46,614 bases of DNA from Jannaschia seohaensis. GTDB lineage: Bacteria; Pseudomonadota; Alphaproteobacteria; Rhodobacterales; Rhodobacteraceae. Under the pieces are notes generated by a model. The model was not told where the DNA came from and made no database searches. It was given only the letters and a program-made list of their open reading frames with translations. Location of the stretch: contig NZ_UETC01000019.1 in the NCBI RefSeq assembly GCF_900116765.1, positions 1 to 46,614 of the forward strand. Direction: 5' to 3'. Positions 9,651 through 27,980 of the stretch are shown piece by piece; positions within the stretch are counted from its first letter, which is position 1, and every line of letters starts with the position of its first letter. Both the position numbers and the translations under genes were made by a program.

Positions 9651-9738
9651 CTCGCGCTCCTGCGGCAAACCGATTGGCGTCGCCGTATCAAGCGACGGCC
9701 AGCGCTTCAATGCGGCGGGGTCAGCCAGCGAGGCCTCG

Positions 9739-9756: not shown

Positions 9757-9832
9757 GCCGGTATGATAGGTCGCGTTGCGCGGCGCGTCGGCTCCCCCGA
9801 GCGGCGGGCCCCGCCGTCGCGGGTCCGGTCGA

Positions 9833-10141
9833 TCAGGACTTCACGCCTTTGACGATGTGACGCGCGAGTTGCGGCTGCCAATCCGTGCCCGAGGCCAAGA
9901 TGCAGGAGATCCCATTGGGCCGTGTCAGCAAGAGCGTCCAGGTGCCGGCCTCCTCCGAGGTCCAGATTTCGTAGACGGCCTTGTCGTCCTTCAGACCGCC
10001 GCCCGAGAAGTTCTCACCGAACTGATCCAGAAGGGCTGCAACGAGATCCTCGCGCAGTCCGCAGGGCGTCTCCTGGGCCGAGGCCGCGATCGGGGTGAAC
10101 AGCAGCGCCGAGGCGATCAGACTTTGGATTATTGTCTTCAT
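9833..10141 (-). CDS. Small secreted hypothetical protein
   Basis: 102 aa. A clear signal peptide ([22 protein letters not shown], cleavage before QETPC) leads to a mature protein of about 80 residues with two cysteines (in TPCGLRED and GISCILAS) that could form a disulfide. The segment [13 protein letters not shown] is typical of a family of small periplasmic proteins common in Rhodobacterales whose role is unknown. Start chosen at the ATG at 10141, where the signal peptide begins; the frame extends 17 codons further. It is divergent from the HD-domain gene. Confidence 0.75.
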
Positions 10142-10264
10142 CCGGTTGGTCCTCCGGTGGGTTAAAGGTGCCGCGGCACCATTCCATAGCATCCGTGCAA
10201 AAAGCGTTACGCCGGCACCGCCGTTTCGGTTGCATCACGACCCGCCCCGGGTGAGGGAGCGTCC

Positions 10265-10858: not shown

Positions 10859-11304
10859 CGCGCATCCATGTCCGCCCCGCCCGCCCTTTCGACGCGGGGG
10901 CGATGGCCGCCCTGCTCAACGCGATCATCGCACGCGGCGGCACCACCGCGATGACGCAGCCGGTGACGGGCGCGCAATTGCGCGACTGGATGGCCGCATC
11001 CGACATCTGGCACGTCGCCGAAGCCGAGGGCGAGATCCTCGGCTTCCAGTGGATCGGCCGTCACGACAGCCTGCCCGAGGGTGCCTGCGACATCGCCACC
11101 TTCGTCGCCCTTGGATCGCACGGCCTTGGCGTGGGCAGCCGTCTGTTCGAGGCCACGCGCAAGGCGGCGAAGGCGGCGGGCCATGCCTGGATCGCGGCGC
11201 GGATCGCCCATTACAACGAAGGCGGGCAGGCCTATTACAAGTCCCGCGGCTTCGAGGACTGGCGCCGCACAGACGACAAGATCATCAAGCGCTACGACCT
11301 GTAG
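10855..11304 (+). CDS. GNAT family N-acetyltransferase
   Basis: 149 aa with a GTG start overlapping the stop of the HD gene. Beta-alpha pattern of the GNAT fold. The acetyl-CoA loop is represented by LGSHGLGVGSRLFEAT (about residues 82-97), close to the Q/R-x-x-G-x-G/A rule, and the C-terminal tyrosine-containing segment QAYYKSRGFED is the usual end of the fold. The acceptor substrate is unknown; similar Rhodobacteraceae proteins are annotated as L-amino acid or phosphinothricin-type acetyltransferases. Confidence 0.88.
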   Translation: MTRIHVRPARPFDAGAMAALLNAIIARGGTTAMTQPVTGAQLRDWMAASDIWHVAEAEGEILGFQWIGRHDSLPEGACDIATFVALGSHGLGVGSRLFEATRKAAKAAGHAWIAARIAHYNEGGQAYYKSRGFEDWRRTDDKIIKRYDL

Positions 11305-11339
11305 ATCCGGCGACCACGAGCGCCCACGATGCGCTCCCA

Positions 11340-11389
11340 CCCTTTCTTCCCTGCCCAAATATCCCGGGGGTCCGGGGGCTGGCCCCCGG
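11340..11389 (-). repeat. Dispersed intergenic repeat, copy B
   Basis: In the 170-base spacer between the convergent acetyltransferase and DMT genes. Minus-strand reading: a stem CCGGGGGCC / GGCCCCCGG-type GC hairpin, then CCCCCGGGATATTTGGGC and AGGGAAGAAAGGG. It matches copies A, C and D and lies downstream of the DMT gene in that gene's reading direction. Confidence 0.65.
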
Positions 11390-11474
11390 TCCGATCCTCC
11401 GGGCAGGCTTCACCGATCCATCTCGGATCGCCACCCAAGGCGAAGACGCCCGACAGGGCGGATGAGCGCCCCCG

Positions 11475-12317
11475 TCAGCGCCGCGCCAGCCCCGTCGCCC
11501 CCACGATCAGCACCGCCCCCAGCCAGAAGCCCGCGCCGGGAACCTCGCCGAACACGAGATACCCGACCGCCGTGGACAGGATCAGGCTGGCATAGCCCAA
11601 CACCGCCAACAGCCCCGCCTCGGCCAGTCGATGCGCCTGGAGAAAGCAGACCTGCGCCGATTGCGCGAAGAGCCCGATGGCCAGCAGCACCGGCCAGGCG
11701 CCGTCCGGCACCGCCTGCCACCCCGTCCAGGCCAGGGGCGCCGTCGCCACGGCCAGGCCGGCCGTATACGCCGCCATCATCACCACCGTCGGCTGGTCGT
11801 TCAACTTGCGCGTGACGACGACGGCTCCCGTCCCCGCAACCACCGTCACCGCCAGCGCCAGCAGCGCCCAGGAGAGCTCGGCCCGAGGATCCACCGCGAT
11901 CACCACGCCCACCAATCCCAGCGCCCCAGCCAGCCAGCGCGCAGGCCCCGCCCGCTCCCCCAGGAACAGCGCGGCCAAGGCGATCATCACCAGCGGCCGG
12001 GTGAAGTTCAGCGCCGTGAACAGCGCCAGCGGCACCCGCGCCACCGCGTAGAACGAGCAGGTGAGCGCGAGCGTCGACAACCCGACCCGCGCCAGATGCA
12101 GCCCCGGCGCGCGCGCCTCGGCAAAGCGCGTGCGGGCGACCCAGATCCAGGGCGAGATCACCGCGAGCCCGACCACCGCCCGCAGGAACACCAGCTGCGC
12201 CGCCGGCAGCTCCGCGCCCCAGGCCTTCACGATGGTCAGCGCCCAGACGTTCAGCCCCATATCGGCCAGCAGCCAGAGCCCGCCCCGCAGGTCGGACCCG
12301 CCGTCAGATCGGCGCAA
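11475..12317 (-). CDS. DMT-superfamily transporter (EamA family)
   Basis: 280 aa integral membrane protein with about ten hydrophobic segments in two EamA repeats, the layout of drug/metabolite exporters. Typical features are the RPLVMIALAALFLGER segment in the first half and TAVGYLVFGEVPGAGFWLGA in the second, each ending in the family's GE motif. It probably exports a small metabolite or amino acid, though substrate cannot be read from sequence. Its start overlaps the end of the PIG-L gene by 14 bases, making it the last gene of a ROK regulator, PIG-L, DMT operon. Confidence 0.88.
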   Translation of the reverse strand: MRRSDGGSDLRGGLWLLADMGLNVWALTIVKAWGAELPAAQLVFLRAVVGLAVISPWIWVARTRFAEARAPGLHLARVGLSTLALTCSFYAVARVPLALFTALNFTRPLVMIALAALFLGERAGPARWLAGALGLVGVVIAVDPRAELSWALLALAVTVVAGTGAVVVTRKLNDQPTVVMMAAYTAGLAVATAPLAWTGWQAVPDGAWPVLLAIGLFAQSAQVCFLQAHRLAEAGLLAVLGYASLILSTAVGYLVFGEVPGAGFWLGAVLIVGATGLARR

Positions 12318-14520
12318 CGAGATTCGCCATCAGGCGGAAGGCTCCGGGCACGAGATGCTCCATCTGATGGTGCAGGATCAGGGCGCAATGGGTATGCCGC
12401 CCCTGCCCCACCTGCCCCGAGAGGAGCGCGCCGCGCAGCGGGGCCTCTCCCGGATCGGCCATCTCCAGCAGCGGCGTATAGGCGGCATCCCAGGACCTCG
12501 CGAAATAGAGCCCCCGCTCCTTGTGCCAGCCCTCCCAGTCGGCGTCGGATATGGGGTTCGGAGCCGCGAGTATGGGATGATCGGCGAGGTGGGTCACTTT
12601 GGCGGCGTTGTCGGTCACGCGCCAGCGCAGGCTCGGCTGGCCGATCTCGATGGGCGCCGGCATCGCGTCAGGATCCCAGGCGTCCCAGGGCCGGTGGTAG
12701 AGCGTCGTCAGCGTCCCCCCGCCTCGCACCCAGTCGGAGAGACGGGGCATCCGCTCCGCCAGCCCGTCGCGGAAGCGCAAGGCGAAGACGCCCAGCAGCA
12801 CCGTATCCGCCTGCGGATCGTCCAGCGCTTCCACATGCGGCTCGGAGACGTCCACGCCGATCCGCCGCAGCCAATGCGCGACCCGGTCGCGCCCGGCCCC
12901 GAAAACGGCGACACGGGCGTCGGGGACCGCCACCTCCAGCGCGCGCAGCCGCAGGATCGCGGGCCGGGCCAGCACGCGGGTCGGGATATGCGGGGCCGCG
13001 ATCTCGGTGACGAGCCGGGCGGGTGCGCCGTCGCGCAGGACGGCGATCTCGTGCAGGCCGACCCTCGGCGGCAGGTGCAGAACCGCGCCCTCCCGCCGCC
13101 ACCCCTCCGGCAGATCCAGGTCGCCATCGCAGCGGACGGCGACGGAGGTCTCTCGCGCGAGGTTCACAACCTCCGCTTCCGGCTTCAGCGCGACGCCGTC
13201 AGGCCGCGCCGCCGGGGTCCGGTCGAGGGGGAGGCGCAGCGAAAGCGGCGTGCCGCGCCAGGTTCCCTCCACCGCGAGGCAGGGCGCGGCGGGGTCGAGC
13301 GGATCGTAGCCGTCCGGATAGGCGGTCGCGTCGACCGAGGGCGACACGGTCACGCCCGCCTCCCCTGTCGTCCAGCCCTCCGGCAGCGCGACCGTTGCGC
13401 TGACCGCCTCCAACGCCCCCGCGCGGGTCTCCAGCCGGATCGGGACATGGGCGCCCGGGCGCACCAGCGGCGCCTCGGCCCAGCCCCGCGCCTCGGCCCC
13501 GGCCGCCAGAAAGAGCGCCCGGTGCAGACGGGTCCGCAGCCGCTCGGCCCTGTGGCCGCGCTCCGGCACCAGCGCCAGCGCCTCGGACCCGGCGCGCGCC
13601 ACGACATCGGGCCGCGCCAGCGCCGCCACCATCTCCGCCACAAGCGCGTCGATCCGCGCGCCGCCGGGCCAGCCGAGATCGGCCCAGCAGACGGGCAACC
13701 CCTCGGTCACGGCCTCCTCGGCACCGCCCTCGACAAGATGCAGGGGCCAGTCCCGTTGAGCCTCCGGCCAGCGCCCCATGCCCTGGGTCCGGTGCATCCC
13801 CCGCGACCACTGGCCGATCCGCGCCCAACTGGCCCCGGTTACCGGGTCGACCCCCTGCCCCGAGACCACCACCGTGGCGGGCGGCGGCGGCAGGTCGTCG
13901 TCATAGGCGGTGCCGGCCCCAGACCAGGCGGGCAGGTAGAGCTTGGTCACCCGCCACGGCTCCTGCTCCGTCTCCCAGGCCGGATCGGCGGCGCGCGCGA
14001 TGGCCTCGGGCGCGAGCAGCGTCATCGCGCGGTGATGTCCGTGCTGGCCCGGCACGTCCAGGAAGGTCGGGCAGAGCAGATCGGGCCGCAGGACGCGCAA
14101 GGCCCGGGCGAAGCGGTCCAGCGTCCGGTCGCGCCCCCAGCGGGCCAGCGCCTCTTCGCCCGACTTGGAGAAGCCGAAATCATGGACCGGATCGCCCGGG
14201 GCGGGCGTCATCCAGCGCACCCGCATGTCGAGGATCTCCGCCGCCCGCTCCATCTCCGCAGTGCGCAACACGCCCAGCGCGGCGCCGGCCTCGCGCCCGA
14301 TATCGTTCTGTCCGCCCTCGCCCCGGGTCGAGCAGACATAGGCCAGATCCAGCCCGTCGCGGAAGCGCAGCGCGGCTAGCATCCCGCTCGTCTCATCGTC
14401 CGGGTGCGCGCCGGATTGCATGAAGGTCAGCGGCGTGCGCATGCCTGTGACGAGGCGCCAGAGCTGCACGATGCGGGGGGCGGCGCGGTCGGCCTCCAGG
14501 CGGGTCTGGTCGGGGGTCAT
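12304..14520 (-). CDS. Large PIG-L (LmbE) family deacetylase with C-terminal amidotransferase-like domain
   Basis: 738 aa, about three times the core family length. The N-terminal 230 residues are the PIG-L/LmbE zinc-dependent N-deacetylase fold with the metal motif AHPDDE (about 38-43), and a later histidine in GQHGHH that completes the site. The family removes N-acetyl groups from amino sugars such as GlcNAc conjugates. The middle portion is beta-rich. The last 220 residues (from about DARVAVFGAGRD) resemble a ThuA/class-I glutamine-amidotransferase-like fold, without an evident catalytic Cys. No signal peptide. It is 8 bases downstream of the ROK gene and facing the sugar ABC operon, which suggests it processes the imported sugar. 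Confidence 0.85.
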   Translation of the reverse strand: MTPDQTRLEADRAAPRIVQLWRLVTGMRTPLTFMQSGAHPDDETSGMLAALRFRDGLDLAYVCSTRGEGGQNDIGREAGAALGVLRTAEMERAAEILDMRVRWMTPAPGDPVHDFGFSKSGEEALARWGRDRTLDRFARALRVLRPDLLCPTFLDVPGQHGHHRAMTLLAPEAIARAADPAWETEQEPWRVTKLYLPAWSGAGTAYDDDLPPPPATVVVSGQGVDPVTGASWARIGQWSRGMHRTQGMGRWPEAQRDWPLHLVEGGAEEAVTEGLPVCWADLGWPGGARIDALVAEMVAALARPDVVARAGSEALALVPERGHRAERLRTRLHRALFLAAGAEARGWAEAPLVRPGAHVPIRLETRAGALEAVSATVALPEGWTTGEAGVTVSPSVDATAYPDGYDPLDPAAPCLAVEGTWRGTPLSLRLPLDRTPAARPDGVALKPEAEVVNLARETSVAVRCDGDLDLPEGWRREGAVLHLPPRVGLHEIAVLRDGAPARLVTEIAAPHIPTRVLARPAILRLRALEVAVPDARVAVFGAGRDRVAHWLRRIGVDVSEPHVEALDDPQADTVLLGVFALRFRDGLAERMPRLSDWVRGGGTLTTLYHRPWDAWDPDAMPAPIEIGQPSLRWRVTDNAAKVTHLADHPILAAPNPISDADWEGWHKERGLYFARSWDAAYTPLLEMADPGEAPLRGALLSGQVGQGRHTHCALILHHQMEHLVPGAFRLMANLVAPI

Positions 14521-14528
14521 GGGGCCTC

Positions 14529-15683
14529 TCAGGCGGCGAGCGCCGGGGTGAAGGTTCGGTTGAGCACCAACGCGCCCGCCCCGATGACGGCGGCGAGGCG
14601 GGAGCAGCGGCCGACCCGCAAGGGGGGCTGCGTTCGGCCTTCGCGGCGGGCGACCGAGCGCTCAGTCAGCGGCGCGGCGGCGATCAGGTCGCGGACGATG
14701 CCCTCGGGCATCGCCCCGCACAGGACGATGGTCTGCGGGTCGAGCAGGTTCTCGATCAGGCCGGTGGCGAGGCCCAGCGGCCCGGCGGCCCCCGCGATCC
14801 AGTCGGCCAGGGCCGGGTCGCCCTCGGCATGCAGCGCGGCGAGCGCGTCCATATCCCCCGCCTTCCGCCCGGCGGCCCGCAGGTGCCGCTCCACCGAGAG
14901 GCGCGACAGCAGCGCCTCCAGGGGTTGCGGCCCGTTGGGCGTCGGGATCGGCACATGGCCGATCTCGCCCGCATTGCCATGGGCCCCGACCACGAGCCGC
15001 CCGTCCTGCACGATAGCGAGGCCCAGACCGGTGCCGAAATAGAGGCAGGCGAAGCTGGTCACCCCCTCGGGGGCCAGCGCGATCCGCGCGCCGAGCGCCG
15101 CCGCGTTGGCGTCGTTCTCGACCGTGACAGTCAAGCCCAGCGGCGCGAAGACCTCGGCCGCTGCAATCCCGTCCCAGCCCGGCAGGTCCGAGGCGATGCC
15201 CGTGCGCCCGAACGGACCCGGCAGCGCCACGCCCGCGCCCAGTAAGCGGCCCTCGGCCTGGGGCGCCGCCGCCAGCGCGGCCGCCAGCAGCCCCGGCAGC
15301 TGCGCCCCTACGTCTTCGGGCGCGGCAGATGCCAGAGGCCGGCGATCGTGCCAGACCGGTCGCCCCTCCAGGTCCAGCAGCGCCGCCAGCAACGCGCCGG
15401 GCCGCACTTCGATGCCCAGCGCGAAGCCCCCCTCGGCGGCCAGCACATATTGCGGCGCGGGCAGGCCCCGACGCCCTCGGGCCAGACCTTGCGTGCGCAG
15501 AAGCCCCTCCCCCTCAAGCTCCGCGATGATGTTGCTCACGGCCTGGGTCGACAGCCCCGCCCGCCGCGCGATCTCGGCCCGGCCCAGCGCGCCCGCGGCT
15601 TGCAGATGCCCCAGCACCAGTTGGCGGTTGTGGTCGCGGGAGCGGGCGGGCGTGACGCCACGGGGGGTCGGAGGCTGGGCCAT
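14529..15683 (-). CDS. ROK family transcriptional regulator
   Basis: 384 aa. An N-terminal winged helix-turn-helix (about 25-70, ALGRAEIARRAGLSTQAVSN) is joined to a ROK actin-like sugar-binding domain (VENDANAAALG, FGTGLGLAI, GNAGEIGHVP). The ROK zinc motif CxCGxxGC is missing: after GEIGH the sequence runs PIPTPNGPQPLE with no cysteine, so it is probably a pure sugar-sensing regulator rather than a kinase. It is divergent from the sugar ABC binding-protein gene with a 105-base gap and heads the PIG-L/DMT operon, and most likely controls both directions. Confidence 0.92.
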   Translation of the reverse strand: MAQPPTPRGVTPARSRDHNRQLVLGHLQAAGALGRAEIARRAGLSTQAVSNIIAELEGEGLLRTQGLARGRRGLPAPQYVLAAEGGFALGIEVRPGALLAALLDLEGRPVWHDRRPLASAAPEDVGAQLPGLLAAALAAAPQAEGRLLGAGVALPGPFGRTGIASDLPGWDGIAAAEVFAPLGLTVTVENDANAAALGARIALAPEGVTSFACLYFGTGLGLAIVQDGRLVVGAHGNAGEIGHVPIPTPNGPQPLEALLSRLSVERHLRAAGRKAGDMDALAALHAEGDPALADWIAGAAGPLGLATGLIENLLDPQTIVLCGAMPEGIVRDLIAAAPLTERSVARREGRTQPPLRVGRCSRLAAVIGAGALVLNRTFTPALAA

Positions 15684-15704
15684 GACCCCGGATAACTCAA
15701 GAAG

Positions 15705-15718
15705 GTTGTGTGTTCAAC
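15705..15718. promoter_or_regulatory. Possible ROK operator
   Basis: GTTG-TGTGTT-CAAC, a 4-base inverted repeat with a 6-base spacer, lies 22 bases from the ROK start in the divergent promoter region. Such sites suit a dimeric winged-helix regulator, but the arms are short. Confidence 0.3.
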
Positions 15719-15746
15719 GAAGGTGATCTAGCGTTGCAGGAAAGGA

Positions 15747-15764
15747 CCGCCCGAGAACGGGCGG
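15747..15764. promoter_or_regulatory. Leader hairpin ahead of the sugar-binding protein gene
   Basis: CCGCCC-gagaac-GGGCGG forms a perfect 6-base stem 25 bases before the start codon. It may stabilise the 5' end of the transcript or shape the ribosome-binding region. Confidence 0.35.
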
Positions 15765-15788
15765 CGGAACAACCGACGGGAGACGACC

Positions 15789-17039
15789 ATGACTTACAGA
15801 ACGACCGCCCTTGCCACGCTCATGGCCGCGGGCCTCGGCACCGCCGCCCAGGCCGAGGTGGAGATCGAATACTGGCAGTATTTCTTCGACGCGCGCGTCG
15901 AGGCGATGGAGCAGCTGATCGAGAATTTCGAGGCGGCCAACCCCGATATCACCGTCACGATGACGCATTTCCCTTATGCCGATTACCGCACTAAGGTCGC
16001 CGCCGCGATCCCGGCAGGCGAGGGGCCGGACGTGGTGCAGCTGTTTTATGGCTGGCTCAACGATTACGTCGAGGCGGATCTGATTCAGCCGCTCCCCGCC
16101 GATGTCTTCCCCGCCGAGAAGATCGACGCGGAGTTCTTCCCCATGGTGCAGGCGATGAAGGACGGGGACGCCTATTGGGCGCTGCCCACCGCCGTCCGCT
16201 CGCTGGCCCTCTTCTACAACGAGCGCCTGTTCGAAGAGGCCGGGATCGAGGCTCCGCCCGAGACCTTGGACGAAATGATGGACATCGCCGCCAAGCTGAC
16301 CAAGCGCGACGGCGCGGGCAACCTCACCCAGGTCGGCATCACCGCCGGCATGACCGCGCAGGACCACCATTGGTGGCGCGAGGGACTGATCAGGCAGATG
16401 GGCGGCGAGCCCTATCTCGATGACTATCAGACCGTGAACTATAACAGCGATGCCGGCCGCGCGGCGCTCGACATGTACACCTCGATGTTCACGGGCGACG
16501 ATGCCGTGACCGCGATCGGCTTCATGGACGAGCCGCAGGCGGCCTTCAAGGCGGGCCGCGCGGGGATGCATATCGACGGCTCGTTCCGCATCGGCTCGCT
16601 CAACGGCACGCGCGGCCTGAAATGGGGCGTGACGGAGCTGCCGGCGACGGCGGACGGCACGCGGTCCAACTACTCCTCCTACTGGGTCAACGCGATCACG
16701 ACCAAGGCCGAGGGCGAGAAATACGACGCCGCCGTCAAGTTCATGGAATACATCACCTCCGACGAGGCGATGCAGATCTGGCTGGACGTGGTGGGCGAGC
16801 TGCCGGCCAAGCCGTCGGTGGGCCTGACCGAAGAGAACGCCAACGATGCGACCTTCGGGCCGTTCATCCGCGGGCTGGCCTATGCCAACACCACCAAATT
16901 CGCCAACGAGAGCGCGCAGCGCCAGCTGATGGTCGAGATGGTGGAGCGGATCACGCTCCAGGACATGGACCCGGCCGAGAGCCTCGCCATCGCCGCCGAG
17001 GCCGAGCAGAAGATCCTCGACGAGTACTACGCCGACTGA
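15789..17039 (+). CDS. Sugar ABC transporter substrate-binding protein (extracellular family 1)
   Basis: 416 aa periplasmic binding protein. Signal peptide MTYRTTALATLMAAGLGTAAQA precedes a mature start EVEIEYWQYFFDAR. The fold markers of family 1 (CUT1) binding proteins are present: the ENFEAANPDITVTM strand-loop, a hinge around FYNERLFEEAGIEAPPETLDEM, and AAFKAGRAGMHIDGSF. It delivers a carbohydrate to the two permeases downstream. The exact sugar is unknown; the operon's lyase, kinase and PIG-L neighbours suggest a substituted amino sugar. A hairpin follows the gene and may raise its mRNA relative to the permeases. Confidence 0.93.
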   Translation: MTYRTTALATLMAAGLGTAAQAEVEIEYWQYFFDARVEAMEQLIENFEAANPDITVTMTHFPYADYRTKVAAAIPAGEGPDVVQLFYGWLNDYVEADLIQPLPADVFPAEKIDAEFFPMVQAMKDGDAYWALPTAVRSLALFYNERLFEEAGIEAPPETLDEMMDIAAKLTKRDGAGNLTQVGITAGMTAQDHHWWREGLIRQMGGEPYLDDYQTVNYNSDAGRAALDMYTSMFTGDDAVTAIGFMDEPQAAFKAGRAGMHIDGSFRIGSLNGTRGLKWGVTELPATADGTRSNYSSYWVNAITTKAEGEKYDAAVKFMEYITSDEAMQIWLDVVGELPAKPSVGLTEENANDATFGPFIRGLAYANTTKFANESAQRQLMVEMVERITLQDMDPAESLAIAAEAEQKILDEYYAD

Positions 17040-17183: not shown

Positions 17184-18080
17184 ATGCAGTTCTACCGCAA
17201 CCTGACGCTGCGCCAGAAGCAGATCGCCTGGGCCTGGGCCTTCCTGGCGGTGCCGGTGCTGTTCTACACGGTCATCCGCTTCTACCCGACCGGCAATGCC
17301 GTCCTGATCTCCTTCCAGGAGTGGAACCTGCTGGGATCGCGCACCTGGACCGGGCTCGACAATTACGAGAAGCTCTGGAACGACCCGGAGTTCTGGACAG
17401 TCTTCGTCAACACCTTCCAATATCTGATCCTGGGCACGCCGATCTCGCTCGTGCTGGCCTTTATCATCGCCTACCACCTCGACAAGCTGCGCTTCGGGCA
17501 TGCCTTTCTGCGGATGCTCTACTTCCTGCCTTTCATGACCAGCGCCGTGGCCATGGCCTGGGTCTGGCGGTGGTTCTATCAGCCGGTGCCTATCGGTCTG
17601 TTCAACAACCTCCTGGCCTCGGTCGGCATCCCGCAGGTGGAGTTCCTGAACTCGGTCGACAACGCCCTGCCCTCGGTCCTCGCGCCCGCGATCTGGGCGG
17701 GGCTGGGCTTTCAGGTCATCATCTTCATGGCCGGGCTGCGCGCCATCCCGGTCAGCTATTACGAGGCGGCGCGGATCGACGGCGTGGGCTGGTGGGTGCA
17801 GCTGACCGAGATCACGCTCCCGCTGCTGCGGCCGACCATCGTCTTCATCGTGGTCTTCTCCTCGATCGGCTTCCTGCGGATCTTCGACCATGTCTTCAAC
17901 ATGACGACGAACAATCCGGGCGGACCGCTGAACTCGACCGAGCCCTTGGTGCTGATGATCTACCAGACGGCCTTCACAAGCTTCGACATGGGATACGCGG
18001 CGGCCCAGACCGTCGTGCTGTTCACGATCCTGCTGATCGTTTCGCTGCTGCAACTCTGGCTATTGCGGGCCGACCGATGA
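17184..18080 (+). CDS. Sugar ABC transporter permease (MalF/UgpA type)
   Basis: 298 aa inner-membrane permease with six hydrophobic segments. The cytoplasmic EAA loop that docks the ATPase reads YYEAARIDGVGWWVQ (about residues 193-207) and is followed by ITLPLLRPTI, the standard sequence of this position. It pairs with the next gene to form the channel. The ATG of that gene overlaps this stop (ATGA), so translation is coupled. Confidence 0.93.
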   Translation: MQFYRNLTLRQKQIAWAWAFLAVPVLFYTVIRFYPTGNAVLISFQEWNLLGSRTWTGLDNYEKLWNDPEFWTVFVNTFQYLILGTPISLVLAFIIAYHLDKLRFGHAFLRMLYFLPFMTSAVAMAWVWRWFYQPVPIGLFNNLLASVGIPQVEFLNSVDNALPSVLAPAIWAGLGFQVIIFMAGLRAIPVSYYEAARIDGVGWWVQLTEITLPLLRPTIVFIVVFSSIGFLRIFDHVFNMTTNNPGGPLNSTEPLVLMIYQTAFTSFDMGYAAAQTVVLFTILLIVSLLQLWLLRADR

Positions 18081-18970
18081 CCGACGCGCCCCTCACCGAG
18101 ATCCCCGAGCGGGTGAAGCCCTCCTCCGATGCGCTCCTGGCCAAGCCCAGGCGGGGCCCGCGCGACAACGCCCAGGTGATCCGCTGGATCCTGCTGTTCC
18201 TGGGCGGTGTCCTGATGGTGATGCCCATCGCCTACATGATCTCGACCTCGCTGAAATGGCCGCACGAGGTTTACAACGTCAACCTGATCCCAGACGAGCC
18301 GACGCTGGAGAACTACACCTACGTCCTGGAGGACGGGCGGTTCTACAACTGGTTCTGGAACTCGCTGATCATCGCGACGCTGACGACGATCTCGAACCTC
18401 TTCTTCGACAGCCTCGTGGGCTACACCCTGTGCAAGTTCCGCTTTCCGGGCCGGACGCTGGTCTTCATCGCGATCCTCAGCACACTGATGATCCCGACCG
18501 AGATGCTGGTCATCCCCTGGTATCTCATGTCCCAGCAATTCGGCTGGCTCGACAGCTATTGGGGCATCATGTTCCCCGGCTTGATGACCGCCTTCGGCGT
18601 CTTTCTGATGAAGCAGTTCTTCGAGAGCGTGCCCGACGACTTCCTCGAGGCCGCGCGGATCGACGGGCTCAACGAGTTCCAGATCTGGTGGGAGGTGGCG
18701 ATGCCGCTGGTCCGACCCGCCCTGGCCGCGCTGGCGATCTTCGTCTTCCTGGGCAACTGGACGGCGTTCCTCTGGCCGCTGATCGTGACCAACTCGGTGG
18801 AGATGTACACGCTGCCGGTGGGTCTGTCGGGCTTCGGCGACGAGGCCGACGTGGCTTGGGAGCTGATCATGACGGGAGCTGCCATCTCGACCATCCCGAC
18901 GCTGATCGTGTTTCTGATCTTCCAGCGGTTCATCATCCGTGGGGTCGTGATGGCGGGGCTGAAGGGGTGA
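18077..18970 (+). CDS. Sugar ABC transporter permease (MalG/UgpE type)
   Basis: 297 aa. After a 40-residue polar N-terminus there are six hydrophobic segments. The EAA loop reads FLEAARIDGLNEFQIWW and is followed by MPLVRPALAAL. The start MTDAPLTEIPERVK overlaps the stop of the first permease by 4 bases. It is the second subunit of the channel fed by the family-1 binding protein. The downstream spacer is filled with hairpins, which may limit read-through into the lyase and ATPase genes. Confidence 0.93.
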   Translation: MTDAPLTEIPERVKPSSDALLAKPRRGPRDNAQVIRWILLFLGGVLMVMPIAYMISTSLKWPHEVYNVNLIPDEPTLENYTYVLEDGRFYNWFWNSLIIATLTTISNLFFDSLVGYTLCKFRFPGRTLVFIAILSTLMIPTEMLVIPWYLMSQQFGWLDSYWGIMFPGLMTAFGVFLMKQFFESVPDDFLEAARIDGLNEFQIWWEVAMPLVRPALAALAIFVFLGNWTAFLWPLIVTNSVEMYTLPVGLSGFGDEADVAWELIMTGAAISTIPTLIVFLIFQRFIIRGVVMAGLKG

Positions 18971-18993
18971 GCGGCGGGTTCGGCGCAGCCGAC

Positions 18994-19014
18994 AAAAGGT
19001 CCAGTGGACCTTTT
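18994..19014. terminator. Strong hairpin after the permease genes
   Basis: Two 9-base arms (AAAAGGTCC and GGACCTTTT) flank a 3-base loop. The right arm ends in four T, and the stop of the second permease is 23 bases upstream. It could terminate or attenuate rightward transcription. Confidence 0.5.
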
Positions 19015-19020
19015 GAGCCG

Positions 19021-19103
19021 CGAACGGGCGGAGCCCCAGACCGGTCCGACACGGTCCGCGAAAGGTCCGGGGGATCTTTCCAGTGCCGAACGGGCGGAGC
19101 CCC
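19021..19103. repeat. Tandem direct repeat inside the spacer
   Basis: The 17 bases CGAACGGGCGGAGCCCC occur at 19021-19037 and again at 19087-19103, 66 bases apart. Each copy is preceded by a hairpin of AAAGGTC type (18994-19014; and GAAAGGTC/GATCTTTC with one wobble near 19059-19080). So the unit is hairpin plus 17-mer, present twice. Confidence 0.75.
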
Positions 19104-19125
19104 GGGGTTTTGCCCCAGGACTGCG

Positions 19126-19150
19126 TCAGACGATCGAAGATCGTCCGACC
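19126..19150. repeat. Inverted repeat GACGATC-gaa-GATCGTC
   Basis: A perfect 7-base stem with a 3-base loop, extended to about 10 pairs on each side with one mismatch (GTCaGACGATC / GATCGTCcGAC). It is one of several stems in the 241-base spacer between the permease and lyase genes. Confidence 0.6.
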
Positions 19151-19153
19151 CGC

Positions 19154-19206
19154 CGGGGGGCTCTGCCCCCCGGACCCCCCGAGGTATTTCCGGCAAGATG
19201 AGGGGG
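19154..19206 (+). repeat. Dispersed intergenic repeat, copy C
   Basis: A GC stem (GGGGGG-ctctg-CCCCCC) is followed by GGACCCCCCGAGGTATTT, then CCGGCAAGATGAGGG. It matches copies A, B and D. The purine tail GATGAGGGGG sits 5-10 bases before the lyase start codon at 19212 and appears to serve as its ribosome-binding site. Confidence 0.7.
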
Positions 19207-19211
19207 TAAAG

Positions 19212-20696
19212 ATGACGGATCTCGATGCTTTTCCCCATCCGGTCTATCGCGACACGGTTCTCGCGCCGCTCTTCGAGGGGGTCAGGGCCCATTACGCGGC
19301 GGGGATGGACGCGATCAATCGGGCCCATCTGGTGATGCTGGTCGAGACCGGCATTCTGTCGCGGGCCGAGGGGGCCGCGTTGGCGGGGGCCCTCGACGCG
19401 ATCTCGGCGGAGGTGGACCCGGCGGCGCTGACCTATACGGGCGAGCACGAGGACTGGTTCTTCCTGGTGGAGGCGCAACTGAGGGAGCGACTGGGCGATC
19501 TGGGCGGGGCGCTGCACACGGCGCGGTCCCGAAACGACATGGACCACACGCTGTTCAAGATGGCGCTGCGTCCGCGCGTGGCGCGGGTGGAGGCGCAGGT
19601 GCACGACCTCGCGGGGACCATGCTCGCCAAGGCGCGGGCCGAGCGAGACACGCTGATTGTGGCCTATACCCATGGACAGCCGGCCCAGCCCTCGACCTTC
19701 GGGCATTACCTCGCCGCCGCGACGGAGGTGTTGCTCCGCGATGCGGCGCGGCTCTCGGACGCCGCAGACGGGCTCGAGCATTCTCCCATGGGCGCCGCCG
19801 CGATCACGACCTCCGGCTTTCCCATCGACCGTGCTCGCGTCGCGGAGTTGCTGGGCTTCGAGGGCGTGCTGCTCAATTCCTATGGCTGCATCGCGTCGGT
19901 CGACTATGTGACCGGGCTCTACTCCGCGATGAAGCTGCCCTTCGTGCATCTGGGCCGGCTGGTTCAGGACTTCGCTTACTGGTCCGCGTTCGAGGTGGGC
20001 CAGCTGCACCTGCCCCGCGCGTTGGTCCAGATCAGCTCGATCATGCCGCAGAAGCGCAACCCGGTGCCCATCGAGCATATGCGCCATCTGGCCGCCGTCA
20101 CCGCCGGGCGCTGCGACATGATGGTCGACACGATGCGCAACACGCCCTTCACCGACATGAACGACAGCGAAGGCGAGGTACAGCAGGCCGGCTATGCCGC
20201 CTTCGAGAGCGGGGGGAGGATGCTGGACCTGTTGGCCGCCGTGATCGCGGCCGCGCGGATCGACGGGGCCCGCGTGCGGCGCAACGCGGACGCGGCTTGC
20301 GTGACGATCACGGAACTCGCCGACACGCTGGTCCGCGACGAAGGGCTGACCTTTCGCGCGGCCCACCACGTCGCCGCCGAGACAGCACGAGCCGTGATCG
20401 CAGAGGGCGTGCCGCTGGGCGTGGGCCACGCCGCATTCGCCCGCGCGTTCGAGGCGCAGACCGGGCGCGCGACCCGGCTCGACGCAGGCGCCTTCGCCGA
20501 AGCCACCTCGCCCGAAACCTTCGTCGCGCGCCGCGATCGGCCGGGCGGGCCAGCCCCCGCCGCGCTCGATGCGGCCTTCGACAGCTATGACGAAACCCTC
20601 GCCCGATTGCGGGACCGAACCCGGTCTCGCGCCGCGCGGCACGCCGCCGCCGACCGGGCGCGCGCGGCCGCCTTCGCCGCCCTGCAGGAGACCTGA
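19212..20696 (+). CDS. Argininosuccinate-lyase-superfamily lyase (EDDS-lyase-like?)
   Basis: 494 aa enzyme of the fumarase/aspartase superfamily, which splits C-N or C-O bonds of N-substituted aspartates to give fumarate. Three conserved blocks are present: GGALHTARSRND (about 98-109), YTHGQPAQPS (152-161) and the signature SSIMPQKRNP (275-284), with the likely catalytic Ser276. The last block differs from classical ArgH (GSSLMPQKKNPD) and resembles variants such as EDDS lyase, so arginine synthesis is unlikely to be its role. It is embedded between sugar permease and sugar ATPase genes; its stop is followed directly by the ATPase ATG (no gap). Start chosen at 19212, where GATGAGGGGG provides a binding site; a longer frame to 19083 lies in the repeats. 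Confidence 0.85.
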   Translation: MTDLDAFPHPVYRDTVLAPLFEGVRAHYAAGMDAINRAHLVMLVETGILSRAEGAALAGALDAISAEVDPAALTYTGEHEDWFFLVEAQLRERLGDLGGALHTARSRNDMDHTLFKMALRPRVARVEAQVHDLAGTMLAKARAERDTLIVAYTHGQPAQPSTFGHYLAAATEVLLRDAARLSDAADGLEHSPMGAAAITTSGFPIDRARVAELLGFEGVLLNSYGCIASVDYVTGLYSAMKLPFVHLGRLVQDFAYWSAFEVGQLHLPRALVQISSIMPQKRNPVPIEHMRHLAAVTAGRCDMMVDTMRNTPFTDMNDSEGEVQQAGYAAFESGGRMLDLLAAVIAAARIDGARVRRNADAACVTITELADTLVRDEGLTFRAAHHVAAETARAVIAEGVPLGVGHAAFARAFEAQTGRATRLDAGAFAEATSPETFVARRDRPGGPAPAALDAAFDSYDETLARLRDRTRSRAARHAAADRARAAAFAALQET

Positions 20697-21743
20697 ATGG
20701 CCGAACTCGCCCTCCGTTCCCTGACCAAGGCCTATGGCCAGACCGAGGTGCTCCACGGCATTGACCTGGAGGTGGCCGACGGCGAATTCGTCGTCCTGGT
20801 CGGCCCCTCGGGCTGCGGCAAGTCCACCACCCTGCGCCTGATCGCCGGGCTGGAGGACACGACCTCGGGCGCCATCGAGATCGGCGGCCGCGACGTCGCC
20901 CGGCTGGAGCCGGCCGCCCGCGACATCGCCATGGTGTTCCAGAACTACGCGATCTATCCGCATATGACCGTGCGCAAGAATATCGGCTTCGGGCTGCGCG
21001 CCTCGAAGCTGCCCCGCGCCGACAAGAAGGAACGGATCGCCGAGGTCGCCGAGATCCTGGGGATGACCCCGCTTCTCGACCGCAAGCCCAGCCAGCTTTC
21101 GGGCGGGCAGCGGCAGCGCGTCGCCATCGGGCGAGCGATGGTGCGGGATCCGGCGGTGTTCCTCTTCGACGAGCCGCTTTCCAATCTCGACGCGCAGCTT
21201 CGGACCCAGATGCGGCTGGAGATCAAGAAGCTGCACCAGCGCGTCGGCACCACCATCGTCTTCGTCACCCATGACCAAGTCGAGGCGATGACCCTGGCCG
21301 ACCGGATCGTCATCATGAAGGACGGGCATATCCGCCAGGTCGGCACCCCGTCTGAAGTTTATCGCAACCCTGCCGATACCTTCGTCGCCCGCTTCATCGG
21401 GGCGCCGTCCATGAACCTGATCGAAGGGCGGGCCGACGGCGCACGGGTGGCGCTGGCCTCGGGCGGGGAGATCGCACTGGCGCGGGGTGGCGGCGACGTG
21501 CTGCTGGGGGTGCGGCCGGACGACCTGCACCCCGTCGAGGGACCGGCGTTGATCGAAGGCCGCGTGACCGTGCAGGAGCCTCTGGGCCCGGAAACGCTGA
21601 TCTACGTCGAGACCAGCGCGGGCGAGGTGATCGCCAAGGCCGATGGCCGCGTGCCCCCCGCCGTGGGCAGCACCGTCCGGCTGGGCGCCGCGCCCGAAGA
21701 CATCCATCTCTTCGATCGCCAGAGCGGGCTGGCTCTGGCATGA
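20697..21743 (+). CDS. Sugar ABC transporter ATP-binding protein (MalK/UgpC type)
   Basis: 348 aa. Walker [10 protein letters not shown], signature [15 protein letters not shown], Walker [13 protein letters not shown] and the H-loop VTHDQVEAM are all intact. A C-terminal TOBE-type domain (residues about 235-348) distinguishes it from peptide-type ATPases and marks it as CUT1. The gene begins at the base after the lyase stop, so the lyase is part of the transport operon. It energises the two permeases upstream. Its stop overlaps the kinase start (ATGA). Confidence 0.95.
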
Positions 21744-22636
21744 GTCAGGATCGGGCAGAGCGGCCGGGCGTTCTCTGCGCGGGGCGCGTCTATTGCGATC
21801 TGGTCTTCACCGGCCTGCCGCGGCTGCCCACGGCGGGAACCGAGATCTTCGCCGACGACCTGTCGCTGCATCCGGGCGGCGGCGCAGCGATCACCGCGGC
21901 CTATATCGCGGCGCTTGGCCGGCCGGCCTTTCTGGCTGCGCATCTGCCCTCCGCCCCCTTCCAGGCGCCGGTCGCGGCCGGGCTGGAGCGCTGCGGCGTC
22001 GATCTGAACCTGTCGAAGCCCTCGACGGAGCCCGGCGCCTTCCAACTGACCGTGGCGATGGCCCATGGCGGTGACCGGGCCTTCGTCACCCGCGATGTCG
22101 GACCGGCCGTGCCGACGCTCGACGCCGCGTCGCTGCGGGCTGCGCGGATCGGCCACCTTCATATCGGCGAACTGAAGACCCTGGTGGAGCGCCCGGACCT
22201 GCTGACCCTTGCCCGCGCCGCGGGGCTGAGCGTCTCGCTCGATTGCGGGTGGGACGATGCTTTGACCGCCTCGGTCGCGCCGCTGATCGAGGCCGTGGAC
22301 CTGTTCCTACCCAACGCCGAGGAGATGGCCCGGCTGACCGCACTGGGCCTCTGCCCGGCGCCCCGGGGCGCAACCGTGGTCAAGCGCGGCGCCGAGGGCT
22401 CATCGACCCCGGGCGGCCCGTGCCTGCCCCCTCCCGCCGCACGGGTCGTGGACACGACCGGCGCGGGCGATGCGTTCAACGGGGGCTTCCTCGATGCCTG
22501 GCTGTCCGGCGCGCCGCTGCTGGCCTGCCAGGAGGCGGGGAATACCTGTGGCGCGCGGGCCGTGTCCCATCCCGGCGGGACGGCGGGGGCCGAGGCGCTA
22601 CGCCGCGCCCGGGTCGAGATGGCCGCCCTGTCCTGA
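21740..22636 (+). CDS. PfkB-family carbohydrate kinase
   Basis: 298 aa ribokinase-fold kinase that phosphorylates a sugar or nucleoside. The N-terminal glycine pair is seen in [17 protein letters not shown], and the C-terminal PfkB signature is [13 protein letters not shown] with the catalytic Asp in GAGDAF (about residue 243). Overlap with the ATPase gene (ATGA) shows it is in the same operon, so it most likely phosphorylates the imported sugar or its lyase product. Substrate specificity is not readable. Confidence 0.92.
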
Positions 22637-22705: not shown

Positions 22706-23105
22706 ATGACGAAGGATTTGCCGAATGTGCTGGCGGATTACGGCGCGGCCTGGCTCGAACCGGTGGCCGATACGCGCCGCGCTCTCCTCGATGCCTGCTG
22801 GAGCGACGAGGGCGTCTATGCCGACCCGAATTCCATGGCCGTCGGCCGCGCGGCTCTCTCGGATCTGATCGGCGGCTTTCACGCGAAAATGCCTGGCGCC
22901 CGGATCGAGCTGACCAGCGGCGCGAGCGCGCATCACGAGCGCATCCTTTTCAGCTGGCGCATGGTGACGGCCGAAGGCGCCACCGCCCTGGAGGGCGTCG
23001 ATTTCGGACGGCTGGCGCCCGATGGGCGGCTGGCCGAGATCACGGGCTTCTTCGGCCCCCCCCCCGGCGGCCTGACCGGCGCCCCAAGACGAAAGCTCAG
23101 AAAGA
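22706..23105 (+). CDS. NTF2-like (nuclear transport factor 2 family) protein, frame fused to the aldolase as sequenced
   Basis: The first 120 residues are an NTF2/SnoaL-like fold (start MTKDLPNVLADYGAAW, end ITGFFGPPP), a small cone-shaped fold with varied enzymatic or binding roles. In the given sequence the frame does not stop and runs on into the downstream aldolase, making a 387-codon frame (22706-23869). A run of ten C at 23056-23065 interrupts the expected end: with nine C the frame would read GPPPAA and stop at TGA 23073-23075, a normal NTF2 end. I regard a separate 122-aa gene as more likely than a true fusion. Product role unknown. Confidence 0.7.
23056..23065 (+). repeat. Ten-C homopolymer run at a gene junction
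   Basis: Ten consecutive C in the coding strand exactly where the NTF2-like domain should end. Deleting one C creates an immediate in-frame TGA (23073) and separates the two proteins. The run is either a sequencing/assembly error or a slippage-prone contingency tract. Confidence 0.9.
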
Positions 23106-23107
23106 CA

Positions 23108-23869
23108 ATGCCCCAGCCCATGACCCTCAAGACCCGGCTCGCGGATCCCTCGGCCCGGCTCACCATGCATATCTGCACCATCCCCTCTGCCACGGTGACG
23201 CAAGCCATCGCCGCCTCCGGCGCCGATTCCGTGGTGGTCGACATGGAGCATGGCGCCGTCGACCACGCCTCCGCCCATGCGATGATCGCGGCAACCGCCG
23301 GGACGTCATGCGCCCCGATGGTGCGCGTCGCCGAAAACGATCCGGTCCAGGTCAAGCGCGCGCTCGATCTCGGGGCCGAGGGCATCGTCTTCCCGATGGT
23401 CCGCACCGCCGAGGAGGCGCAGCGCGCCGTCGCCTCCTTGCGCTACCCGCCCCACGGGACGCGCGGCTTCGGCCCGTTCATCGCGCAATCGCGCTGGGGC
23501 ACGGGCCTTCTGGACCACCGCGAGACCGTGGACGGGTCGCTGGTCTGCTGCCTTCTGGCGGAGACGGCCGAGTCGATCGAGAATATCGAGGCGATCTGCG
23601 CCGTGCCCGGGGTCGATATGATCGTCCCCGCCCAGTTCGATCTCTCGACGGATCTCGGCATCTCGGGGCAGTTCGACCATCCCGATTTCCAGGCCGCCCT
23701 CGCCAAGGTCGAGGCGGCGGCCGGCAAGGCGGGCATCGCGCTGGGGAATGTCGCGCTGTCCAAGGCCCAAGCGGACGGCCTGTTCGCGAAAGGCTACCGC
23801 GTGGCCTGCGGCTTCGACGTGCTCTGGCTGCGGGCAGCCGCCGCAGAAGCGCAAAGCTGGACCGGGTGA
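23108..23869 (+). CDS. HpcH/HpaI-family aldolase
   Basis: 253 aa class II aldolase with the family metal site in VVVDMEHGAVDHAS (around residues 38-51), GTRGFGPF and the VPAQFDLSTDLGI segment. Family members cleave 2-keto-3-deoxy acids or 4-hydroxy-2-oxo acids to pyruvate plus an aldehyde. ATG at 23108 (MPQPMTLKTRL) is the natural start. The purine-rich stretch 5' of it (GAAAGCTCAGAAAGACA) could bind the ribosome. As the sequence stands it is in frame with the NTF2-like protein upstream. Following a sugar transporter and kinase, it may act on the sugar acid end of the pathway. Confidence 0.85.
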   Translation: MPQPMTLKTRLADPSARLTMHICTIPSATVTQAIAASGADSVVVDMEHGAVDHASAHAMIAATAGTSCAPMVRVAENDPVQVKRALDLGAEGIVFPMVRTAEEAQRAVASLRYPPHGTRGFGPFIAQSRWGTGLLDHRETVDGSLVCCLLAETAESIENIEAICAVPGVDMIVPAQFDLSTDLGISGQFDHPDFQAALAKVEAAAGKAGIALGNVALSKAQADGLFAKGYRVACGFDVLWLRAAAAEAQSWTG

Positions 23870-25543: not shown

Positions 25544-26038
25544 ATGCGTCGCCTTCGGCCCCCCCTCGCGGGGGGGCCTTCCAACACGACGGGTTTGCTC
25601 GTCATCGGCTGGCAGGAACGGATCGACCTGCCGCAACTGGGCCTGACCCGGCTCCATGCCAAGATCGACACCGGCGCGCGGACATCGGCGCTGCATGCCG
25701 ACGAAATTAACAGCTTCGACAAGGACGGAGAGACCTGGGTCCGGTTTCACACCCGGTTCGACGACGACGCGCGCGACCTCGATGTCGAATGGCCCGTGCT
25801 GGAGCGCCGCGAGGTCAAGAACACCGGCGGCGTCCCCGAAGAGCGGATCGTGATCCGCACCCGCTTTCGCATCGCGGGCCGCGCCTGGCCGATCGACCTG
25901 TCGCTCACCGACCGCGGAGACATGCGCTTCCGCATGATCGTGGGCCGCACGGCTTTGCGCGGCCATTCCATCGTCGTCCATCCCGGGCGCCGCAATCTTG
26001 CCGGGCCACCCGACCGCCCGAAGGAAATCGACTCATGA
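25544..26038 (+). CDS. rimB: RimB-like retropepsin-fold protease (Zn_protease, PF05618 type)
   Basis: 164 aa as an ATG-started frame. The retropepsin-like signature [13 protein letters not shown] (about 41-53) carries the catalytic Asp-Thr-Gly. The second half has [19 protein letters not shown] and [11 protein letters not shown], the fold's usual second sheet. This family was named an ATP-dependent zinc protease but is a retropepsin-like protease; in Pseudomonas RimB works with RimK in ribosomal protein S6 glutamylation. The first 17 codons overlap a GC hairpin and are low-complexity, so the real start may be TTG at 25595. Four-base overlap (ATGA) with rimK. Confidence 0.88.
25557..25578. terminator. 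GC-only hairpin after the orphan binding protein
   Basis: GGCCCCCCC and GGGGGGGCC form a perfect 9-base stem with a TCGC loop. It sits 17 bases after the stop of the binding-protein gene and lies within the first codons of the retropepsin gene if that gene starts at 25544. No T run follows. Confidence 0.5.
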
Positions 26039-26940
26039 AGATCGCAATGCTGGCCCGCAACCCGACCCTCTACTCGCATAAGCGCCTCAAGGAGGCGGCG
26101 GAGGCACGCGGGCACGAGCTGCGCATCGTCAACACGTTGCGCTGCTACATGAACATCGCCTCGCGCCGCCCCGAGATCTACTATGACGGAGAAAAGTTGA
26201 CCGGCTTCGATGCCGTGATCCCGCGGATCGGCGCCTCGGTCACGTTCTACGGCCTGGCCGTGCTGCGCCAGTTCGAGATGATGGGCGTCTATCCCCTGAA
26301 CGAGAGCGTCGCCATCGGCCGCTCGCGGGACAAGCTGCGTTCGATGCAGCTGCTCGCGCGGGACGGGATCGGCCTGCCGGTGACGACCTTCGCCCATGAC
26401 CCTAAGCAGACCGAGGAGGTGCTGAAGCTCGCCGGGGGCGCGCCACTGGTGGTGAAGCTGCTGGAGGGCACGCAGGGGCTGGGGGTCGTGCTGGCTGACA
26501 CGGACCGCTCCGCCAAGTCGGTGATCGAGGCGTTCCGCGCGACGGGCACCAACATCCTGATCCAGGAATTCATCAAGGAGGCGGGCGGCACCGACATCCG
26601 CGCCCTGGTCATCGGCGGCAAGGTCGTCGCGGCCATGAAGCGAACCGGCGCCGAGGGGGAGTTCCGGTCAAACCTGCATCGTGGCGGCTCGGCCCGAGTG
26701 ATCAAGCTCACGCCCGAGGAACGCTCGACCGCCGTTCGGGCGGCCAAGTGCATGGGCCTCGCCGTCTGCGGCGTCGACATGCTGCGCGCCAATCACGGCG
26801 CGGTGGTGATGGAGGTGAACTCCTCCCCCGGGCTTGAGGGCGTGGAAAAGGCCACGGGCATCGACATCGCCGGCAAGATCATCGAGCATCTGGAGAAAGC
26901 CGCCAAGCCCCACGCGACGCGAACCAAGGGCAAGGGGTGA
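26035..26940 (+). CDS. rimK: RimK, ATP-grasp ribosomal S6 glutamate ligase family
   Basis: 301 aa, the family's normal length. N-terminal pre-ATP-grasp region, then the ATP-grasp fold with [13 protein letters not shown] (nucleotide-binding loop), [17 protein letters not shown] and [10 protein letters not shown] (metal-binding end). RimK adds glutamates to the C-terminus of ribosomal protein S6; other family members ligate different amino acids. Start is ATG at 26035 overlapping the rimB stop, and the stop overlaps the GTG start of the next gene. That tight coupling with a protease and a deacylase-like enzyme suggests a common modification cycle. Confidence 0.93.
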
Positions 26941-27980
26941 CCAAGCGCGCCGCCTTCGTGTTGGACGGGCAGTCGGTCGCCCCCGGCACGCGGGCGGTCA
27001 TCGACCTGCCCGTCAGCCACCTGTCCGACCACACGCCGGTCACGATGTCGGTGCAGGTCGTCCACGGCAAACGCCCCGGGCCCACCGCCTTCGTCAGCGC
27101 CGGCATTCACGGCGACGAGGTGATCGGGGTCGAGATCGTGCGCCGCCTGGTGCGGGTGCCCGCCCTCAGGACGGTGCGGGGCACACTGCTGGTCGTGCCG
27201 GTGGTCAACGCCTTCGGCTTCATGAACCACTCGCGCTACCTGCCCGACCGGCGCGACCTCAACCGCTCCTTTCCGGGGACCAAGGGCGGCTCCCTCGCCT
27301 CGCGGCTGGCGAATCTGTTCCTGACCGAGATCGTGGCGCGCGCGGATTTCGGAATCGACCTGCATTCCGCCGCGATCCACCGCACCAACCTGCCGCAGAC
27401 CCGCGTCTCGCCCGAGACGCCCGAGATGCTGGACATGGCCCGCGTCTTCGGCGCCCCCGTGATCCTGCAATCCCCCCTGCGGGAGGGCAGCCTGCGCCAC
27501 GCCGCCAAGGAAATCGGGCGCGACGTGCTGCTCTACGAGGCAGGCGAGGGGCTGCGCTTCGACGAGTATTGCGTGCGCGCGGGCCTGTCGGGAATCCTCC
27601 GGGTGCTGCGCTACAAGGGGCTGATCGGCGGGCGCGGGATCATGGCGGCCAAGGCGGCGCCACAGTTCTGCACCATGTCGAAATGGCTGCGCGCGCCGGT
27701 GGGCGGGCTGCTCCGGACCTTCCGCGCAGATGGGGACGTGGTCGCCGCGGGCACGATCCTGGGCGCGGTCGCCGATCCGTTCGGCCGCTCCGAGCGCGAG
27801 ATCGCCGCGCCCTTCGACGGGCTGATCGTCGGACGCGCGGTCATGCCCGTCGTCAATGAGGGGGATGCCGTCTTCCATCTCGCGCGGGTCGACTCGGTGG
27901 AACGGGCGGAGTCGACCCTCGACGACCTCGCCGACCAGATCGCGGGCGACCCTCTCTTCGACGAGGACGAGATCATCTGA
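26937..27980 (+). CDS. Succinylglutamate desuccinylase/aspartoacylase family zinc hydrolase
   Basis: 347 aa with GTG start. The zinc ligands of the M14-like fold are present: His58 and Glu61 in GIHGDEVIG, and His143 in [10 protein letters not shown]; a glutamate in [13 protein letters not shown] (about 204) is the likely catalytic base. C-terminal beta domain follows. Known relatives hydrolyse N-acyl amino acids (succinylglutamate, N-acetylaspartate) or act as carboxypeptidases on amino-acid chains. Placed immediately after rimK with a 4-base overlap, it may remove added glutamates or hydrolyse the donor; this is inference. Not AstE itself, since no arginine succinyltransferase genes are nearby. 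Confidence 0.88.

Follow-up and report, generated by a model that had tools for sequence, protein, structure and literature searches.

In the aspartase/fumarase, or argininosuccinate lyase (ASL), superfamily, succinyl groups attached through O, N or S are eliminated as fumarate, as stated in the report that describes the lyase 2SL (PMC9706529). By that description 2SL sits in a catabolic operon for a cysteine adduct, together with an ABC transporter, a deacylase and an acetyltransferase, and it resembles the lyase considered here in its superfamily, in the release of fumarate (predicted in our case) and in an operon with an ABC transporter and a deacylase (PMC9706529). A second group of comparable enzymes are BshB, Bca, MshB and Mca, PIG-L deacylases that act on N-acylglucosamine glycosides; here the corresponding activity is predicted from the family, the PIG-L genes lie beside an uptake system, and all scores of the PIG-L proteins examined were below the cut-offs of those four families. 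The third is the Nag pathway of N-acetylglucosamine and glucosamine catabolism, with which the operon shares a ROK regulator, a sugar kinase and, at some loci, NagB or NagB-II. To our knowledge the Nag pathway has no fumarate-lyase step.

The window, a 46,614 bp stretch of the Jannaschia seohaensis genome analysed at its full length (contig NZ_UETC01000019.1), carries a superfamily gene inside a sugar ABC transporter operon. The product of this gene forms a subfamily of its own, with a characteristic set of kept and changed residues and a recurrent set of neighbouring genes. It is probably a fumarate-releasing lyase distinct from the enzyme of arginine synthesis, and on balance we favour an operon that would import and dismantle a conjugate of glucosamine with a C4-dicarboxylate, via release of fumarate, each reaction being predicted from sequence. 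The lyase represents a new branch within an established superfamily, and its pathway appears to be undescribed; no description of the operon, or of bacillithiol breakdown by a lyase, was found in the open-access literature, the partial coverage of which makes this weak evidence.

The lyase and its relation to ArgH and EDDS lyase

The open reading frame at 19212-20696 (+ strand) is a real gene encoding a protein of 494 aa. Matches to Lyase_1 (143.9 bits) and ASL_C2 (36.8 bits), both above the Pfam cut-offs, place it in the ASL superfamily, as do its catalytic serine loop and its fold. Relatives are numerous, with 7120 of 7998 scored candidates at E<=1e-60, a set that possibly includes ArgH proteins. 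Identity to the lyase was 69-100% among the 120 matches listed, in which the nearest relative with a name, from Jannaschia formosa, was 90% identical along 94% of the length. Sixteen positions need mention as invariant in all 59 rows of the family alignment: S106, R107, N108, D109, H154, S275, S276, K281, N283, V285, H289, N310, P312, D315, N317 and D318. The lyase of locus L122, outside these rows, has T at 317.

The NCBIfam argH model, TIGR00838, accepts the window lyase (292.5 bits against a cut-off of 279.5) and the L109 relative (314.3 bits), while L116, from Deinococcus, falls below the cut-off (244.4 bits). Because the model accepts such proteins, most of the informatively named relatives listed are labelled argininosuccinate lyase, a few being called lyase family protein. 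The score is the one point in favour of a second argininosuccinate lyase, or of a hitch-hiking argH paralogue that has kept its arginine function, which we consider very improbable. A dedicated, canonical argH is present on another contig of the genome (C16:917976-919331) and scores 585.6 bits, against 292.3 for the window lyase, which removes the concern, raised in the first-pass annotation, that the gene might be the only argH of the genome. The fixed place of the lyase within a sugar operon, with all four parts of the transporter at 76 of 77 loci, argues in the same direction.

Phylogeny also separates the two enzymes. In a tree of 50 rows, in which EDDS lyase was represented by the engineered 6rx8 sequence, the 28 alphaproteobacterial lyases formed a single clade (100/100) and the eight ArgH proteins a separate one (100/100) from which the window lyase was absent. 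Seven Deinococcus lyases stood beside the alphaproteobacterial clade (98/91), both groups being on long branches. The engineered EDDS lyase was not placed with the lyase family, its position being unsure owing to long branches. Six further superfamily paralogues, L118, L129, L130, L131 and L132 (annotated argH) and the unannotated L112, lay outside both the ArgH clade and the lyase family; they come from non-arginine settings, namely haloarchaeal plasmids, ABC operons and, in Streptomyces, a gene cluster that includes an adenylation domain.

The motif around the catalytic serine had been read as a departure from ArgH that brought the lyase closer to EDDS lyase, and neither half of this reading held. 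The canonical ArgH of the same genome reads GSSIMPQKRNPD at this position, and since it too carries SSIMPQKRNP, the motif is not diagnostic; only the replacement of Asp by Val after NP is telling, the window lyase reading SSIMPQKRNPV. Wild-type EDDS lyase (6g3d) reads SSIMPQKKNPD and so keeps the Asp that the window lyase has lost, and the argument from an EDDS-like motif was discarded. The residues of ArgH that face arginine are, we assume, the Asp after NP and the YNKDxQEDK loop. Both are missing from the lyase family alignment, in which V285 occupies the former position in 59/59 rows and the loop has given way to H/R-N-x-P-F/Y-x-D-x-N-D. The leaving-group loop is thus LPLAYNKDxQEDK in ArgH and HNTPFTDMND in the lyase family (RNTPFTDMND in the window), and the Asp of the arginine clade contrasts with the Val of a separate clade found in a sugar operon. 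On the separate argH, the tree and these residues, identity as an ArgH paralogue was rejected.

For EDDS lyase the substrate shell is described as R112, N113, Q159, N288, D290 and Y320 (PMC12363623). When the window lyase was aligned to 6g3d, the R and both N residues were found to be kept, whereas Q159, D290 and Y320 of the Chelativorans enzyme (6g3d, 6g3e) were replaced by H154, V285 and M316. D290 and Y320 presumably lie near the amine of the EDDS lyase substrate, and their replacement by Val and Met speaks against an N-linked substrate cleaved at a C-N bond in the manner of EDDS lyase and ArgH.

Genes associated with the lyase

As the first-pass annotation had proposed, the lyase gene is inserted in a CUT1 sugar transporter. 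The solute-binding protein (15789-17039, +; SBP_bac_8/SBP_bac_1) is followed by two permeases (17184-18080 and 18077-18970, both + and PF00528), then by the lyase and by the UgpC/MalK-type ATPase (20697-21743, +; NF008653, 480.9 bits, cut-off 432). The gap between the second permease and the lyase (18971-19211) holds a dispersed repeat found on many contigs of the genome: of 165 candidates 40 matches were scored, the gap itself included, and most of these fall at about positions 173-237 of it with 74-100% identity, one (C22) covering 25-136 instead. In many relatives the permease and lyase genes nearly touch.

Downstream of the ATPase lies a PfkB-family sugar kinase (21740-22636, +; PF00294, 91.5 bits), predicted to be a glucosamine kinase, although its best score was to ribose-1-phosphate kinase (61.8 bits). 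It is followed by a 387-aa frame (22706-23869, +) with a SnoaL-like (PF12680) and an HpaI aldolase (PF03328) domain, either a fusion or two genes sharing a frame, which is probably outside the core. On the other strand are a ROK-family transcriptional regulator (14529-15683; PF00480 and HTH matches), a long PIG-L/LmbE N-deacylase of 738 aa (12304-14520) and, overlapping the PIG-L gene, an EamA/DMT-family exporter (11475-12317; PF00892, 80.7 bits). The PIG-L, PfkB and HpaI neighbours named in the first-pass annotation were therefore all detected.

Assignment of 12304-14520 to PIG-L/LmbE rests on PF02585 (56.7 bits, cut-off 28.2), on an AHPDDE motif invariant in 25 rows and on a PIG-L fold. The protein has an N-terminal PIG-L domain, a beta-rich middle and a C-terminal alpha/beta part, and no signal peptide was seen by eye. 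Its AlphaFold2 model (pLDDT 88.6) gave MshB first in a fold search, with chitobiose deacetylase and BshB also among the best, while a PDB sequence search with the same protein returned no match at E<=0.001.

Conservation was assessed on 93 distinct lyases of the alphaproteobacterial type, consisting of the window, 58 relative loci, hand-chosen genome loci and 11 of 27 alphaproteobacterial plasmid matches; four duplicates were left out, as were L151, which extends L107, and the short L157, and the seven Deinococcus loci were counted apart. Sufficient flanks (at least 7.5 kb upstream and at least 4.5 kb downstream) were available for 77 of these, the other 16 lacking them, and the sample is not random and includes near-copies. 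A gene was scored as present when tblastn gave 80 bits or more within 10.5 kb, a threshold at which diverged genes may be missed. By this measure the CUT1 binding protein, both permeases and the ATPase occur at 76/77 loci (all four are missing at L168), PIG-L at 69/77, the ROK regulator at 68/77 and EamA at 46/77. PfkB was found at 55/77 and a ROK kinase at 7/77, so that either sugar kinase is present at 61/77; a kinase directly follows the ATPase at 60 loci (54 PfkB, 6 ROK), the remaining matches being a ROK gene far off on the opposite strand (L064) and a PfkB gene on the far side at a distance of 9 kb (L166). At the 80-bit threshold PIG-L went undetected at 8/77 loci and a sugar kinase at 16/77.

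HpaI reached at least 80 bits to the window protein at 1/77 loci, the window itself, and the aldolase, which the first-pass annotation had counted in the pathway, was set aside on this ground; by eye another HpaI-type frame lies 3' of the ATPase at L050. At L167, L168 and L169 the lyase and PIG-L genes are adjacent and divergent, with CUT1 genes undetected nearby, and in the last two of these loci PIG-L is followed by genes that resemble a peptide-type ABC transporter by eye. At L121 (Terrarubrum, 8953-16107) a hypothetical gene comes after the lyase and ATPase, and behind it stand nadA, L-aspartate oxidase and nadC.

As control, 20 stretches of 20 kb, each with ArgH at its middle, were taken from related genomes. 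PIG-L, kinase and deaminase were each found at 0/20 of these; an ABC-ATPase match occurred at 9/20, as it may in any stretch of a genome. Against this control Fisher's test gave p = 1e-14 for PIG-L but only p = 0.02 for the deaminase. The loci are not independent, the L107 and L153 kinases, for instance, being 99.7% alike.

Three other features of the window lie apart from the operon. At 25544-27980, 3' of a family-5 (oligopeptide-type) binding protein, an ATP-dependent zinc protease (PF05618), a RimK-like ATP-grasp protein (by eye) and an AstE/AspA-type deacylase (PF24827) stand in a row. The frame at 29471-30457 encodes a strongly acidic, low-complexity protein with long Asp/Glu runs and a C-terminal RTX calcium-binding repeat (PF00353, 35.2 bits), and that at 38787-40220 joins polysaccharide-deacetylase-like and OHCU decarboxylase domains in a fusion of the ureide-pathway type.

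Deaminases and the predicted substrate

Glucosamine-6-phosphate deaminases provide the link to a specific amino sugar. NagB was found at 3/77 loci and NagB-II at 15/77, so that either enzyme occurs in or beside the operon at 18/77 loci (20/93 of all loci), although in the window genome NagB-II lies outside the window, on another contig (C16:968144-969157, 305.6 bits), and NagB has no match in that genome. A rough binomial estimate, assuming that a 4 Mb genome has two deaminase genes and that the loci are independent, gives 0.8 loci expected against the 18 seen. At 12 of the 20 loci (L009, L012, L016, L019, L027, L037, L105, L134, L137, L138, L145 and L146) NagB-II shares the strand of the kinase and lies 3' of it, its start being 0.85 to 1.42 kb past the kinase match; at five it lies elsewhere, on the other strand at L013, L031, L139 and L171 and on the far side at L017. 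The nagB of L152 has four bases in common with the ROK kinase gene (NagB 242.1 bits, cut-off 236.9), and at L107 and L153 nagB follows the PIG-L gene; as these last two are close kin, the three NagB loci count as two at most. The L107 nagB (17581-18354), beside the PIG-L gene, is itself broken by one in-frame stop. Three SIS-type deaminases that were scanned scored 245.8, 228.0 and 313.4 bits with NagB-II, without reaching the curated cut-off of 430, 99.4-121.3 bits with GlmS, and at most 26.9 bits with the fructoselysine deglycase FrlB. NagB and NagB-II catalyse one reaction but are not related to each other, and the link to glucosamine-6-phosphate therefore seems to have more than one origin. 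Such separate recruitment suggests glucosamine-6-phosphate as a downstream intermediate, and with NagB or NagB-II at some loci and PIG-L at most, the amino sugar is probably glucosamine.

In the pathway that we propose, the CUT1 transporter would import an N-acylated glucosamine bearing a 1,2-dicarboxyethyl group, malyl or aspartyl. PIG-L, cytoplasmic as judged by eye, would take off the N-acyl group as expected from its family; the lyase would beta-eliminate fumarate and free glucosamine, as superfamily chemistry and the kept catalytic residues suggest; and PfkB, or the ROK kinase at other loci, would phosphorylate the sugar, these three steps being named here in no particular order. The glucosamine-6-phosphate so formed could then be converted by NagB-II or NagB to fructose-6-phosphate and ammonia.

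PIG-L also bears on the position of the dicarboxylate. A review gives a core of N-acetyl- or N-acylglucosamine as the target of every PIG-L/LmbE enzyme known when it was written (PMC4101496). An N-acyl group, where there is one, requires the dicarboxylate to be attached at a site other than that nitrogen. As substrate class we regard O-linked malate conjugates as the likeliest, for example GlcNAc-malate or a bacillithiol remnant, although none of the genes at the loci identifies the dicarboxylate. The first-pass annotation had proposed a conjugate of a sugar or amino sugar with aspartate: breakdown of an amino-sugar conjugate agrees with the gene context, whereas O-linked malate suits the PIG-L gene better than aspartate.

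An N-linked substrate is less likely, though conceivable; its C-N cleavage would be that of EDDS lyase and ArgH. It could be glucosamine with the 1,2-dicarboxyethyl group on its amine, the Heyns-type product of fructose and aspartate, or Amadori fructosyl-aspartate. The former would leave the PIG-L enzyme encoded at 69/77 loci no N-acyl group to remove. With the latter, a deglycase of the FrlB type would be expected, while the three SIS proteins score 228-313 bits as NagB-II against at most 26.9 as FrlB, and on these scores the Amadori/FrlB route was disfavoured. GlcNAc-asparagine was dismissed by reasoning, as its sugar is on the side-chain amide and would not be freed by elimination of fumarate.

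It is improbable that the linkage is to sulphur, the lyase freeing fumarate from an S-(2-succino) thiol as 2SL does and PIG-L acting as a thiol-conjugate amidase. For such a substrate, 2SL is described as a proven superfamily lyase of this kind (PMC9706529) and thiol-conjugate amidases are listed among PIG-L enzymes (PMC4101496). Against it, the gene families that recurred at 10 or more loci when clustered were only the transporter, the regulator, PIG-L, PfkB and EamA.

Returning to O-linked malate, the only natural glucosamine-malate compound that we know of is the core of bacillithiol, glucosaminyl-malate. One producer of a bacillithiol, Polaribacter sp. MED152, is marine. This core is described as the alpha-glycoside of glucosamine with L-malate (PMC10950700). 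Bacillithiol or its N-methyl form has been reported from Deinococcus-Thermus, Firmicutes and Bacteroidetes, with about 1,150 pmol of N-methyl-bacillithiol per mg dry weight in strain MED152 (PMC6282198). Producers in these groups make a source of the substrate plausible, its use being a separate matter. It is conceivable, and offered here tentatively, that the lyase eliminates fumarate from glucosaminyl-malate to leave free glucosamine, and that the operon scavenges bacillithiol or N-methyl-bacillithiol. The thiol would be released by Firmicutes, Bacteroidota or Deinococcus, PIG-L would serve as deacetylase or conjugate amidase, EamA would export the cysteine part, and the glycoside would be opened from the side of the aglycone, without a glycosidase.

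Distribution and implications

A related lyase is present on seven Deinococcus plasmids. At four of them (L116, L124, L127 and L128) the ROK regulator, lyase, binding protein, two permeases, a short PIG-L and PfkB lie in one run, the order of which differs from that of the alphaproteobacterial loci. In three of these four the lyase is followed by a long PIG-L or an NEW3-domain protein, and the L128 protein annotated as NEW3 gave no PIG-L match. L117, L125 and L126 yielded only the lyase, the binding protein and the two permeases. At L116 the short PIG-L resembles MshB (160.3 bits, cut-off 224.35); the long one carries CBM9 and is secreted as judged by eye, which hints at a larger substrate. 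Similar functions in another order and with another type of PIG-L favour a functional association over mere inheritance of the block.

Among Alphaproteobacteria the lyase is an accessory trait. At E<=1e-75 it was found in 12 of 385 genomes, that of the window included, and within the genus in 4 of 20, again counting the window's own, the other genomes giving ArgH-like or weaker matches. From this patchy spread and the recurrence in Deinococcus, the substrate should be a natural amino-sugar conjugate of several habitats.

The argininosuccinate lyase labels borne by relatives of this enzyme can mislead the reconstruction of arginine pathways. Bacillithiol has been called the most widespread thiol in bacteria by one study (PMC6282198), and if the substrate is a remnant of it, the operon would represent a breakdown route for that thiol together with a new type of glycoside cleavage.
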